A stretch of 64,000 nucleotides of DNA from Planctomycetota bacterium (GTDB taxonomy: Bacteria > Planctomycetota > Phycisphaerae > Sedimentisphaerales > Anaerohalosphaeraceae), in assembly GCA_019456225.1 (NCBI GenBank), contig VRUI01000007.1, positions 1 to 64,000 of the forward strand, in the 5' to 3' direction. Of the stretch, positions 1,574-62,815 are shown piece by piece; within the stretch, counting starts at the first letter, position 1, and every line of letters begins with the position of its first letter. A program made the translations under genes and the position numbers. Below the pieces are notes generated by a model. The model did no database searches. It was not told where the DNA came from and saw only the letters and a list, made by a program, of their open reading frames with translations.

Positions 1574-2140
1574 GTGGGCGGAGTTGGTATTTGGGACATT
1601 GTGGACATTTCCCACCTATGGTTTTGGCCGTTTTTTTTGCTTTTTTTTTGACATTTTTTGAAATTAATCGCGAAAAAAACAGATATTTTGAAATTAATGA
1701 AGAAAAATGGCGCGTTTTTGAACGTTTTTTACACTTTTATTCAGAGGGTAAATAAATTCAACAAAGGGGGAATGACCGCTGTTTGACAGCAATTACGAAT
1801 TACTAATTACGAATTACGAATTGAGGACTCGCCTTTGGCGAGGCTATTTTTAAAAAGATTTTGTCTTCGAGAATTCAGAAACTACAGAGAAAAGATTTGA
1901 AAAAGTTTAGCCATCCGTCAGTACTGTCGGACTTTGCTTCGCTCAGCGAAAAGGAGGAAAAGAGAGAGTTAAGAGATTTTTTAGCCACAGATTAACGCAG
2001 ATTAACACAGATTAAAAAACTAAAAACTTTGCTACCGATAAAAGAGATAATTTGTCCGCGGATTTACGCGGATTTTTTCTTTTTATTTTCTGGGATTGTG
2101 TTATATTACAGCTATTAGCTATTAGCTATTAGCTTTTGGG
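1574..2140. repeat. Repeat-rich intergenic region with several word-like repeats
   Basis: No gene seen. Contents in order: two TTTGAAATTAAT words near 1660 and 1690; the attacgaatt word array (1791-1823) with its hairpin (1828-1842, listed separately); a small hairpin TTCGC-TCA-GCGAA at 1938-1950; a 10-bp period array of cagattaac words at 1988-2015; CGCGGATTTACGCGGATT at 2057-2074; and attagct repeated with an 8-bp period at about 2111-2135. All lie strictly between genes. Confidence 0.7.
1791..1856 (+). repeat. Composite element: word repeats, hairpin, GCTATTTTT
   Basis: The words AATTACGAATTACTAATTAC continue to about 1823. A perfect hairpin follows, CTCGCC (1828-1833), TTT loop, GGCGAG (1837-1842), and then GCTATTTTTAAAAAG. 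The same architecture with different stem bases occurs at 24293-24368, 49078-49125 (reverse orientation) and 62682-62775. It could act as a terminator, but the word array upstream is not explained by that. Confidence 0.65.
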
Positions 2141-6932: not shown

Positions 6933-7352
6933 TACTGTGTCCCCCTTTTGGTTTATCTGTATTACCGGCTATGTAAATGCCAGAGTATCTTTGCGCTGAT
7001 AGTCGGCGATTGTCCCTTTTGCTCCTTTCGGCCAATTTACGTGGCAACTTTAACATAGCCACGCAGGTGAATTGAAAGCCTGAGAATGTATCTTATTGGC
7101 AGCCGGAATATCGCACTCAGGGTAGTACTTGCTATTTGGATTGATCCGGAAAATGCGTAGGTAACAGGCCGCAATAACACTACCTACAAGGCCAATAGTA
7201 TATGTTGACCCAGAATGTCACTCGTGGACATAGCGCGCGATTCCATCGACGGTGATATCGGTAATTTTATGTGTGGCAACAGGCGAGTTAATACTTCCAA
7301 GTCTGGTTTTATCGCTGCGCTTTCGGCGTCGCTTCGCTATGCCGGGACAAGT
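6933..7352. other. Intergenic region, no assignable gene
   Basis: The part nearest 6933 is the leader of the STAS-like gene. Between 7218 and 7406 both strands are open in codon-matched register (the minus strand reads HKITDITVDGIARYVHE before a stop at 7218), but neither has a start signal or a recognisable family. It may be a decayed gene end. Confidence 0.35.
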
Positions 7353-7502
7353 GCGATTGCGGGCGTGTTGGGCAATAGGAACTTGTCAGGTTTTGATGTT
7401 TATTGAGCACAGTGATTATCACTGCGATTGCAGGCGTGTTGGGCAATAGGAACTTGTCAGGTTTTGATGTTTATTGAGCACAGTGATTATCACTGCGATT
7501 GC
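7353..7502. repeat. 71-bp tandem repeat, about 2.1 copies
   Basis: GCGATTGC recurs at 7353, 7424 and 7495, exactly 71 bp apart, and the intervening sequence (GTGTTGGGCAATAGGAACTT ... CAGTGATTATCACT) is repeated almost perfectly; the first copy differs by gcggg against gcagg. Each unit contains the near-palindrome AGTGATTATCACT. The third, partial copy runs into a GCGCTTCGGGCTTTTATT element at 7501-7518 close to the end of the kinase gene. The repeat is too long and too few in number to be CRISPR. Confidence 0.85.
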
Positions 7503-24144: not shown

Positions 24145-24476
24145 CCAACTTTCTCAAAATAAGTAGCTAATTGTGCTGTTAATGTGCCAGTGCCGCTGCA
24201 AATCAATGGGTTTTGTCCGGCATAAACGGCCGAGCATAAGTGTACCCACTATCACCTATGTAGCCGATACCGCCTCAGTTGTCAATAATTAACTCAAACT
24301 GACCGTTTGAGAATGAAAAATGAAGAATGAAGAACAAGGTTTCGGCCTGACGGCCGAGGCATTTTTATTGAAAAACAGGTTTCACGTAAGTGTTTTTATT
24401 GCAGTGACTTAGGGCAAGGCCCCGGCCATTTCCGGTCAGTTTGAGAAATTAATTCTTTTCCGGTCAGTTTGAGTAA
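24145..24476. repeat. Intergenic region made mostly of repeat elements
   Basis: No gene. It contains the composite element at 24293-24368 and most of the 28-bp tandem repeat that starts at 24430, both listed separately. Confidence 0.6.
24293..24368 (+). repeat. Composite element: palindrome, word repeats, hairpin, GGCATTTTT
   Basis: CTCAAAC-TGACC-GTTTGAG (24293-24311), word array gaatgaaaaatgaagaatg (24311-24335), hairpin TCGGCC-TGAC-GGCCGA (24342-24357), then GGCATTTTTATTG. The same order of parts occurs at 62682-62775, including the CTCAAACTGACC palindrome. Stem bases differ between copies but pairing is perfect in each. Confidence 0.7.
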
Positions 24477-24491
24477 TTAATTCTTTTCCGG
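24430..24491. repeat. 28-bp tandem repeat, 2.2 copies
   Basis: TTCCGG recurs at 24430, 24458 and 24486. The unit is TTCCGGTCAGTTTGAG, one variable base (A or T), then AATTAATTCTT. It overlaps the stop codon and the last codons of the membrane glycosyltransferase gene (24477). GGTCAGTTTGAG is the arm of the palindrome in the composite elements, so this is a tandem relative of them. Confidence 0.75.
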
Positions 24492-25853
24492 CCAGGCATA
24501 GTCCGGCGGGTAAAGTTTTTTGTTGAGTTTTTTGGCGGTGTCTTCGACTCCTCTTTTACCCATGAAATGGTTGATGAAATCGATATCAGTTTTGTTCCAG
24601 GCCTGTGCCGGGCTTAGTATCGCGATCTCATCGGCTTTGAGGTTCAGTGTGGAGGGATCGAAATGCGGCCTTATCGGATTTACGAAATTACTTACAAACA
24701 GATGCAATCCGGTGGAGGCGAACATCGCAAATAATATTATGCTTATCGCGGCAAAAGTTTTCGCGGCTGTTTTTTTCGGAAACAAAGCGATTACAGCAAA
24801 AGTCAGTATGATCAATGATGGAGCGAAATGTCGTGGATCCAGACTCGCCTTGGAAAAAAAGAATGCACCAAATAACCCTAGCCCGTAAATCCAGATTAAT
24901 AATTCAGGCGGTCTTATCTTCTTGATGTTTTGCAAAACAAAAATGCTTGATAATGTGATAAGAGCGATAATAGTGCATATCCAGAATGTCATGGAGCTTC
25001 TTAACCGGACCCAATCCATAAAACTGATGTCATTGGAAGCTACGTTTTCAATTCGTGAGAAATCCCGAATTACTCCAAATGCCCCCATATAGTTGACCGG
25101 GCCGATAAGATAGCTGCAAATATTACCGGCGATAATGCCTACTATAATTATTGCCAGGATTTTTGGCTCATGGTTGAATTGCTGCCGCATTAGAAGACGT
25201 GTAAATAACAAAAACATTCCAACAGCAAAGATTGCGGTTAAAAGAATGATAGACCATTCCTGTTTGCCGGCAGCCAGGTAGAATGTCGCGCAAAAAAGAA
25301 GGACGTAACGAAAAAATGTTCTTTTATCCGATTTGGCAATAAACAACAGCGCAGCTGCAAATAACGCGTTCATCAAAATACCGACACCGCCGTCAATCTG
25401 GAGCCTGACAGAGGTTTTTATCGCCGTTGGCGAGACGGCTACCGCTAACAGGAGCAAGGCAAGCAAAATATTGACAGGTTTTTTTCGAGAGCACAGATAT
25501 GCCCCGATACCCAAAAGTATAAAAAACTGGAACAGTGAAAAAAGTAATCGCAAAACAGGCGTTATTTTCATGTCATCTGTGTATGGGACTTGTTTTATTA
25601 TCGGCGAACAAACAATACCCGCGATTCTTAGCGAATTATAAAGGGTTTCCGGGTGCCTGGGAAAGCCATAAAAATCCTCGCCATCTGACCTTCCCTGCTG
25701 CAAAAATTCCGGCCCATGGGTTTGATTTACAAATATATTTGCGAATGCCCCTTCTTCGCCGGTTAAAGGAAACCTGTAGAAATGCAGCCTCACTGCAAAA
25801 AACAACAAGACAAACGACGCAATGAAGATTATTTTTTTTGTATTTTCCCGCAT
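24477..25853 (-). CDS. Membrane glycosyltransferase-like protein (GT-C/GT39 type)
   Basis: 458 residues, about 10-11 membrane helices. After the first helix comes RFPLTGEEGAFANIF, the position of the acidic catalytic pair in GT39-type enzymes. Between helices 1 and 2 the loop contains QTHGPEFLQQGRSDGEDFYG, giving a long outward loop. AGGGATAAG precedes the ATG. The C-terminal 60 residues are soluble. Known: GT-C enzymes take sugar from a polyprenyl-phosphate donor, which the GT2 enzyme at 18437-19372 could make. The 3' end is overlapped by a tandem repeat. Confidence 0.65.
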   Translation of the reverse strand: MRENTKKIIFIASFVLLFFAVRLHFYRFPLTGEEGAFANIFVNQTHGPEFLQQGRSDGEDFYGFPRHPETLYNSLRIAGIVCSPIIKQVPYTDDMKITPVLRLLFSLFQFFILLGIGAYLCSRKKPVNILLALLLLAVAVSPTAIKTSVRLQIDGGVGILMNALFAAALLFIAKSDKRTFFRYVLLFCATFYLAAGKQEWSIILLTAIFAVGMFLLFTRLLMRQQFNHEPKILAIIIVGIIAGNICSYLIGPVNYMGAFGVIRDFSRIENVASNDISFMDWVRLRSSMTFWICTIIALITLSSIFVLQNIKKIRPPELLIWIYGLGLFGAFFFSKASLDPRHFAPSLIILTFAVIALFPKKTAAKTFAAISIILFAMFASTGLHLFVSNFVNPIRPHFDPSTLNLKADEIAILSPAQAWNKTDIDFINHFMGKRGVEDTAKKLNKKLYPPDYAWPEKN

Positions 25854-49047: not shown

Positions 49048-49077
49048 TTTCAATTCTCCATTACTGCTGCAAATGCG

Positions 49078-49125
49078 TCGGCCGCAGGCCGAATCCGCAA
49101 TTCGTAATTCGTAATTAGTAATTTA
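49078..49125 (-). repeat. Composite element, reverse orientation
   Basis: Read on the minus strand: the word array attactaattacgaattacg, then hairpin TCGGCC-TGC-GGCCGA (49092-49078) and CGCATTTG. It lies between the tetR stop (49123) and the outer-membrane gene. Same architecture as 1791-1856, 24293-24368 and 62682-62775. Confidence 0.65.
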
Positions 49126-62681: not shown

Positions 62682-62775
62682 CTCAAACTGACCAATCGGT
62701 CAGTTTGAGAGTCGTTAGTCGTTAGTTTTTAGTCGTTAGGGTTGGATTCGCCCTTACGGGCGAAGCTATTTTATT
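62682..62775 (+). repeat. Composite element: palindrome, word repeats, hairpin, GCTATTTT
   Basis: CTCAAACTGACC-AATC-GGTCAGTTTGAG (62682-62709), word array gtcgttagtcgttag (62711-62740), hairpin TTCGCCC-TTAC-GGGCGAA (62747-62764), then GCTATTTTATT. Closest to the copy at 24293-24368. Confidence 0.72.
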
Positions 62776-62815
62776 AAAAAAGGGCCGAAAGAATTGATCT
62801 TTCGGCCCTTTTTTC
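62776..62815. terminator. Bidirectional terminator
   Basis: AGGGCCGAAAGA (62781-62792), five-base loop, TCTTTCGGCCCT (62798-62809), a perfect 12-bp stem with T-runs on both sides (AAAAA before, TTTTT after). It ends the minus-strand gene that stops at 62860. Confidence 0.88.

Follow-up and report, generated by a model that had tools for sequence, protein, structure and literature searches.

This study revealed that the four composite repeats in the window, by which we mean the whole stretch of 64,000 nucleotides that was analysed, belong to a numerous family that extends across the genome of their host (G000; 4,454,371 bases, 152 contigs). They are probably copies of one dispersed, non-coding and non-autonomous intercistronic repeat of about 60-110 nt, which appears to be structured as RNA and to behave like a mobile element. 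This reading draws on features that can be taken directly from the DNA, namely the copy number, the architecture, the covariation of the stems, the position and orientation between genes, the absence from orthologous gaps, the supply of stop codons and a few inverted copies of coding ends.

Architecture of the element

From 5' to 3', the element comprises a 5' hairpin, usually of the TCAAACTGACC type, an array of heptads, a GGA motif common to most copies (alignment A1), a GC-rich 3' hairpin and the tail GGC(T)ATTTT. The parts of the four window copies are as follows.

62682..62709, + strand: copy 62682, 5' hairpin CTCAAACTGACC aatc GGTCAGTTTGAG (direct reading; the same palindrome type stands beside elements elsewhere in the genome)
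62710..62739, + strand: copy 62682, heptad array of the AGTCGTT type, 4.3 copies (TRF)
62740..62746, + strand: copy 62682, spacer GGTTGGA with the GGA motif (direct reading, alignment A1)
62747..62764, + strand: copy 62682, 3' GC hairpin TTCGCCC ttac GGGCGAA (model match 62722-62777, 54.5 bits)
62765..62776, + strand: copy 62682, T-rich tail GCTATTTTATTA (hairpin and tail score as terminator-like)
24293..24311, + strand: copy 24293, shortened 5' hairpin CTCAAAC tgacc GTTTGAG (direct reading, fold)
24310..24334, + strand: copy 24293, heptad array of the AGAATGA type (TRF)
24342..24369, + strand: copy 24293, 3' hairpin TCGGCC tgac GGCCGA and tail GGCATTTTTATT (model match 24317-24371, 51.7 bits)
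1778..1790, + strand: copy 1791, hairpin GCTGT ttg ACAGC ahead of the heptads, weak (5 bp) and unlike the TCAAACTGACC type (fold; may be chance)
1791..1822, + strand: copy 1791, heptad array of the AATTACG type (TRF)
1828..1852, + strand: copy 1791, 3' hairpin CTCGCC ttt GGCGAG and tail GCTATTTTTA (model match 1803-1855, 60.3 bits)
49099..49123, - strand: copy 49078, heptad array of the AATTACG type, directly after the stop codon of a TetR-family gene (TRF, direct reading)
49069..49092, - strand: copy 49078, 3' hairpin TCGGCC tgc GGCCGA and tail CGCATTTGC, upstream of an outer-membrane efflux gene (model match 49064-49118, 55.1 bits)

The initial annotation had described a shared order of short word repeats, a perfect GC hairpin and (G)GC(T)ATTTT. 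All four loci indeed exhibit heptads, a perfect GC stem and GC followed by a T-rich tail, but the tail of copy 49078 reads CGCATTTG and departs from the proposed consensus. The stems are those that had been listed: CTCGCC/GGCGAG at 1828, TCGGCC/GGCCGA at 24342 and at 49092 (minus strand), and TTCGCCC/GGGCGAA at 62747. A palindrome (CTCAAACTGACC) had also been placed in front of two copies; at 62682 its stem has the full 12 bp, whereas at 24293 it is reduced to the 7 bp of CTCAAAC/GTTTGAG.

Further repeats were seen in the window. Directly 3' of the 62682 element, an A-tract, a long inverted repeat and a T-tract (62780-62815) form, by eye, a likely bidirectional terminator. Just 3' of copy 24293, positions 24429-24495 hold a 28-nt tandem repeat (2.4 copies) that contains GGTCAGTTTGAG, the 3' arm of the 5' hairpin. 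A 71-bp tandem repeat (2.1 copies, 98% match) occupies 7352-7502, and the decamer CACAGATTAA is repeated three times at 1986-2015.

Across the 111 elements retained for context analysis, the heptads were sorted by regular expression into AATTACN (60), ATTATTG/T (27), AATGTMT (14), TAGTYGT (4), AATGAAG (1) and other words (5). The CGGCC stem is combined with every heptad class in this set, and the CCGCC stem occurs with AATTACN, ATTATTG/T, AATGTMT, TAGTYGT and other classes. Given that each of these stems accompanies several heptad classes, either the modules reassort or the stems have changed several times. In the host genome, 30 occurrences of the TCAAACTGRCC palindrome are close to an element and 4 are not, which makes this palindrome part of the element. 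It is also present in the relative G002, where the heptads are mostly of the AATG or TTAG type. The hairpins are thus common to different genera and the heptad word is not. No terminal inverted repeat spanning the whole element was seen in the copies read, no open reading frame was found within the composites, which are intercistronic and lie outside 23S rRNA, and the 64-kb window gave no Rfam match at the gathering score.

Copy number and spread

A search of the host genome with the pattern AATTACGAATTACGAATT, allowing up to two mismatches, returned 246 places and the reversed control one; these are overlapping registers and do not give the number of arrays. Sampled stretches of the genome repeatedly showed the same succession of parts, and 28 copies from the sampled scans, the window copy at 49064 included, were aligned (A1) and converted into a covariance model, R1. 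The expectation that there are more copies than chance would produce was borne out by this model, according to which the 4.45 Mb genome holds at least 150 copies. In 1,154,626 bases, consisting of the window and of genome stretches some of which had been picked for their element content, R1 gave 128 matches with E up to 0.1; the 111 that reached at least 34 bits were used for the context counts and the 17 below 34 bits were dropped.

Matches to R1 were found in 17 of 59 genomes of the host and its relatives, with 61 in G002, 35 in G049, 22 in G005, 9 each in G029 and G057, 8 in G035 and at most 4 in the rest. Even within one genus (g13, six genomes) the number ranges from 0 to 9. For G002, 26 elements entered the context analysis after removal of 2 of 28 weak matches, and 18 matches in other relatives stand outside the context counts. 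Only one of 392 genomes matched in a scan of the phylum, which is insensitive because only 14 candidates per genome were scored. One pattern scan of genome contigs returned eight stretches (L128-L135), from Saprospiraceae, Bacteroidales/Bacteroidota, Patescibacteria and Kapaibacterium, in which AATTACG heptads are followed by GGAWTCG and in which no such GC hairpin was seen by eye; a pattern scan of viral contigs returned nothing. Letter and word searches of the literature collection found no published description of the composite.

Covariation of the stems

The pairing of the 3' hairpin is maintained while its sequence changes, as had been noticed from the four window copies. With regard to alignment A2 (128 rows), 98.6% of the cells are paired, two-sided changes occur in each of the four modelled pairs, and covariation scores 0.326, a level that none of 500 shuffles reached (0.066 after shuffling); A2 was fitted to the model, and its cells represent sequences rather than events. 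Since the sampling for A1 partly required perfect stems, the model and the covariation tests lean towards pairing, and the clean test is provided by arrays selected by their heptads alone. Among 65 such arrays, 57 were followed by a perfect stem of at least 5 bp starting 4-10 nt downstream, where shuffled sequences predict 1.2, and these 57 stems comprise 12 different 5' arms. Because the same stem variants occur across heptad classes, part of the covariation may reflect module reassortment or a few founder variants.

That the pattern reflects random resemblance, sequences of low complexity or a fault of assembly is scarcely credible. The heptads are indeed simple repeats, but the pattern, stem and covariation controls speak against such an origin, as does the occurrence of the composite in several independent assemblies. 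In the scan of sampled stretches the reversed-sequence control is useless, as two hairpins flank the element.

The strand on which the structure would act is less readily apparent. Folding energy, which was lower on the element strand in 60 of the 80 elements folded (of 111), favours that strand, whereas the non-canonical pairs of the 5' hairpin, with 32 A.C/C.A against 15 G.T/T.G, favour the opposite one. An RNA on the element strand is therefore not clearly favoured by the sequences.

Position and direction between genes

Genes were called with a home-made caller (964 genes, 85% coding), whose start codons are approximate. The element was found to be strongly co-directional with its neighbours: out of 111 copies, 91 are oriented like both flanking genes (co/co) and 5 against both (anti/anti; p about 2e-21 at equal odds), while 6 are co/anti, 5 anti/co, 3 at an edge and 1 inside a called gene. 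The first gene caller gave 81 co/co and 4 anti/anti. Two of the window copies, those with model matches from 24317 and 62722, are among the five anti/anti cases, and those from 1803 and 49064 are co/co, the latter between the TetR-family gene and the outer-membrane efflux gene. In G002, the 26 elements divide into 16 co/co, 5 anti/anti, 4 co/anti, 0 anti/co and 1 at an edge (16 against 5, p 0.027). Other repeats have too few copies to serve as orientation controls; the best of them, of the GAATATC type, shows 12 co/co and 4 anti/anti among 24.

The usual order is a stop codon, 0-6 nt, the element, 0-80 nt and a start codon, with a median of 35 nt from the end of the model to the start codon. 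In some of the 63 tight co/co copies the upstream gene takes its stop codon from the element: from the TGA of the 5' hairpin (AAC-TGA-CC) in 9 and from the TAA of a heptad in 5. Within the same 63 copies, 24 have a motif resembling a Shine-Dalgarno (SD) sequence after the element, 25 have none, and 14 have a start codon that overlaps the tail.

One reading of the GC hairpin and T-rich tail is that these copies are dispersed intrinsic terminators or attenuators causing a partial stop after the upstream gene. Hairpin and tail score as terminator-like at window position 62747 and in two of the four elements in L110, but the T run is interrupted and starts after GGC, the gaps that hold most copies are short and co-directional, so that a complete stop there would be polar, and the heptads, the 5' hairpin and the shared sequence are left unexplained. 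On the sequence features, we regard this reading as unlikely. As the sense strand is the more terminator-like one, simple tolerance predicts the reverse of the observed bias. Either the message would profit from the sense structure or at least not suffer from it, or insertion would depend on transcription or on gene ends.

The same position between genes recalls the TAACTGA heptads of Beggiatoaceae, Cyanobacteria and Bacteroidetes. According to the excerpt of MacGregor 2015 consulted (PMC4679880), more than 100 sets of these repeats are intergenic, forward and just before start codons; some overlap the upstream stop codon, their distribution over phyla is patchy and no mechanism was evident, although protein binding before start codons and control of translation were proposed. 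The present element shares tandem heptads that run forward upstream of start codons. It differs from the one fixed word described in that excerpt by its many words, chiefly AATTACN, ATTATTG/T and AATGTMT, by its 5' hairpin and by its co-varying 3' hairpin, and TAACTGA itself is not among the main heptad words of the 111 elements.

This resemblance in position (PMC4679880, excerpt), together with the orientation and nearness to start codons, the overlap of start codon and tail in 14 copies and the 25 copies that have no other SD-like motif between the element and the start codon, would agree with a vertically kept regulatory RNA. In such a post-transcriptional regulon, a protein on the heptads or hairpins before start codons would control translation. 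Nevertheless, the sites are mostly unshared among relatives, the heptad word varies by genus and by copy, and 24 of the 63 copies retain a native SD-like motif downstream of the element, so that we hold this alternative to be rather unlikely. For the mobile-like repeat favoured here, the transcript would carry one hairpin by the stop codon and, ahead of the next start codon, a GC hairpin with its T-rich tail, the two being linked by AU-rich heptads. This structure may act as RNA, and the element may be tolerated or may serve as intercistronic punctuation, through shielding or processing of message ends or through weak attenuation.

Insertion into gene gaps and inverted copies of gene ends

Orthologous gaps were compared at roughly 65-90% protein identity, that is, at genus-to-family level, with boundaries that are not resolved to the base. 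The host carries an element in both gaps of its etf operon, and the native SD is still present after each. When the etf gaps of 29 relatives were inspected by eye, an element was found in both gaps of G029 and a degenerate one in G032; G014 and G022 showed heptad-like arrays only, G010 showed an ORF for S23 (the 23S rRNA intervening-sequence protein) with heptads, and 24 showed none of these.

Five G002 elements were aligned to their counterparts in the host. At L241, the host gap is 34 nt long and free of the element, which in G002 takes the place of the final codons and the stop codon; the elements at L237 and L250 are likewise absent from the host. The gap before the L243 gene holds an element in both genomes, in opposite directions and with different heptads; both genomes also have one in the gap preceding a der-like gene (L234/L046), where the two run the same way and differ in their heptads and 5' hairpins. 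Most sites are thus unshared, and one may be old or a hot spot. No transposase was found, and no target-site duplication was seen between these genomes, among which none is a congener of the host. Of the two possibilities raised at the outset, a functional structure or a mobile element, it is the mobile-like character that is strengthened by the patchy copy number, the orthologous gaps that lack the element and the stop codons that the element supplies. It would be moved in trans by other machinery. Group IIC introns and attC-type insertions similarly lie beside stem-loops at gene ends in a fixed orientation, but the element is without an intron RNA or a reverse transcriptase.

In a few cases the 5' hairpin departs from the TCAAACTGACC type and contains the coding end of the upstream gene together with its inverted copy. 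The hairpin at L250 of G002 reads AGCTTATAAAAAGTCG tgaa CGACTTTTTATAAGCT, and its 5' arm encodes the conserved end EAYKK; the ortholog in the host has no inverted copy. The lon gene of the host (L125) ends in AAGACCGC ttt GCGGTCTT followed by TGA, whereas the lon genes at 27 other loci in relatives end, for example, in VLKTTLQD or VLKAALEN without an inverted copy, those of G020 and G021 being out of frame at the end. A glutamate-synthase-like gene of the host (L127) shows ATCAGCCC ga GGGCTGAT, where the two closest relatives end in DNKPGD and DNKPEKK, again without an inverted copy. All three examined cases agree with templated copying, in inverted form, at the junction; being few, they should be taken as a lead rather than a rule. 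An automatic search for such target-derived 5' hairpins identified 4 among 55 elements without a TCAAACTGACC-type hairpin and 7 among 757 other gene ends (Fisher p 0.004), a count that is soft because one of the four (L112) resembles a TCAAACTGACC derivative. At L061, a 13-bp candidate inverted copy of a coding end was also seen.

S23 genes and Y1/RAYT genes

Genes of the S23 family (PF05635) are present in 49 of the 59 genomes, with 0-13 per genome, and in none of 14 named control genomes. At the 29 S23 loci with both flanks available, 26 ORFs have neighbours on both sides that share one direction, and in 18 the match of the left flank to the reverse complement of the right one exceeds the 95% level of a null with swapped flanks. 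Strong self-match periods of 7 (13 flanks) and 8 (9 flanks) were observed, and none in shuffled flanks. Such heptads, arranged as inverted arrays around S23 genes, suggest an insertion process that may be shared with the element. The number of S23 genes was tried as a predictor of the number of elements and is a weak one (Spearman 0.31, p 0.016), and genomes with 11-13 S23 genes can hold 0-9 elements.

At the loci L192-L221, for instance L195, L207, L213 and L204, the ORF between operon genes is flanked by imperfect arrays of heptads or octads, with the reverse complements of these arrays. By eye, L204 lies between two apparent tRNA genes. Three of the 29 loci show long flank-to-flank matches that are direct and not inverted (scores 58, 64 and 99), and a direct match was seen by eye at L199 and L218.

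A more speculative proposal, which we consider unlikely as a whole, is that the element is laid down by 3'-end extension at gene or transcript ends. The end would snap back and be copied, giving a 5' hairpin that is an inverted copy of the target, after which a slipping, template-guided polymerase would add the heptads and then the GC hairpin. The same machinery would make the inverted heptad ends of S23 loci, the heptad arrays of distant phyla would be its traces, and together these would form an unrecognised class of mobile element. If true, such snap-back extension would also explain the orientation and the closeness to stop codons.

Movement by a RAYT (Y1) transposase, as a REP/REPIN-type element, was also considered. 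The GGA motif with its hairpin resembles the REP foot and stem, and Y1 genes occur in 52 of the 59 genomes, with a number correlated with that of the elements (Spearman 0.43, p 0.0008, kinship ignored). Despite this correlation, neither of the two Y1 genes read among the five of the host has an adjoining element, several Y1 genes of relatives are flanked by other hairpins of their own, and G002 holds 61 elements with a single Y1 gene. An origin of this kind is accordingly very unlikely. The element shares with REP/REPIN sequences (PMC3116915) the form of short, dispersed intergenic hairpins, and differs in not standing beside the RAYT genes read. Repeated hairpins of their own, several preceded by GTAG or TTAG, were seen on the flanks of the Y1/RAYT genes at L227, L229 and L230 in relatives.

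Comparison with known repeats and significance

With at least 150 copies, one of 111 inside a called gene, a conserved structure and empty sites at genus-to-family level, the mobile-like repeat agrees with what defines dispersed, MITE-like intergenic stem-loop repeats. Like ERIC, NEMIS, YPAL, BIME and others, as covered by the excerpt consulted of PMC2267715, it is short, intergenic and present in many copies with a conserved stem-loop; some such repeats, for example the ERIC sequences of Yersinia, are reported there as RNA hairpins that act on neighbouring genes. In contrast to the families in that excerpt, its two hairpins are joined by heptads of changeable word, it is strongly co-oriented with both neighbours, cases of inverted target gene ends occur, and no terminal inverted repeat of the whole element was seen. 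The intervening sequence of Coxiella 23S rRNA, according to the excerpt of PMC4990558, has tandem heptads before an S23 ORF and complementary ends. In the taxonomic order of the host, heptads likewise accompany S23 ORFs, inverted on both sides and between operon genes, whereas the composite, set against that excerpt, has no ORF, carries heptads in one direction only and lies outside rRNA. The element behaves like the intergenic stem-loop repeats and is placed like the TAACTGA repeats, while being a member of neither named family.

Heptad arrays, which have been reported from several bacterial groups, here form one part of a structured, mobile-like element whose position and direction in operons are strict. 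In addition, heptad repeats and the intervening sequences of 23S rRNA are linked in a way that can be tested, and the snap-back signature, if true, would offer a clue to how such elements are made.
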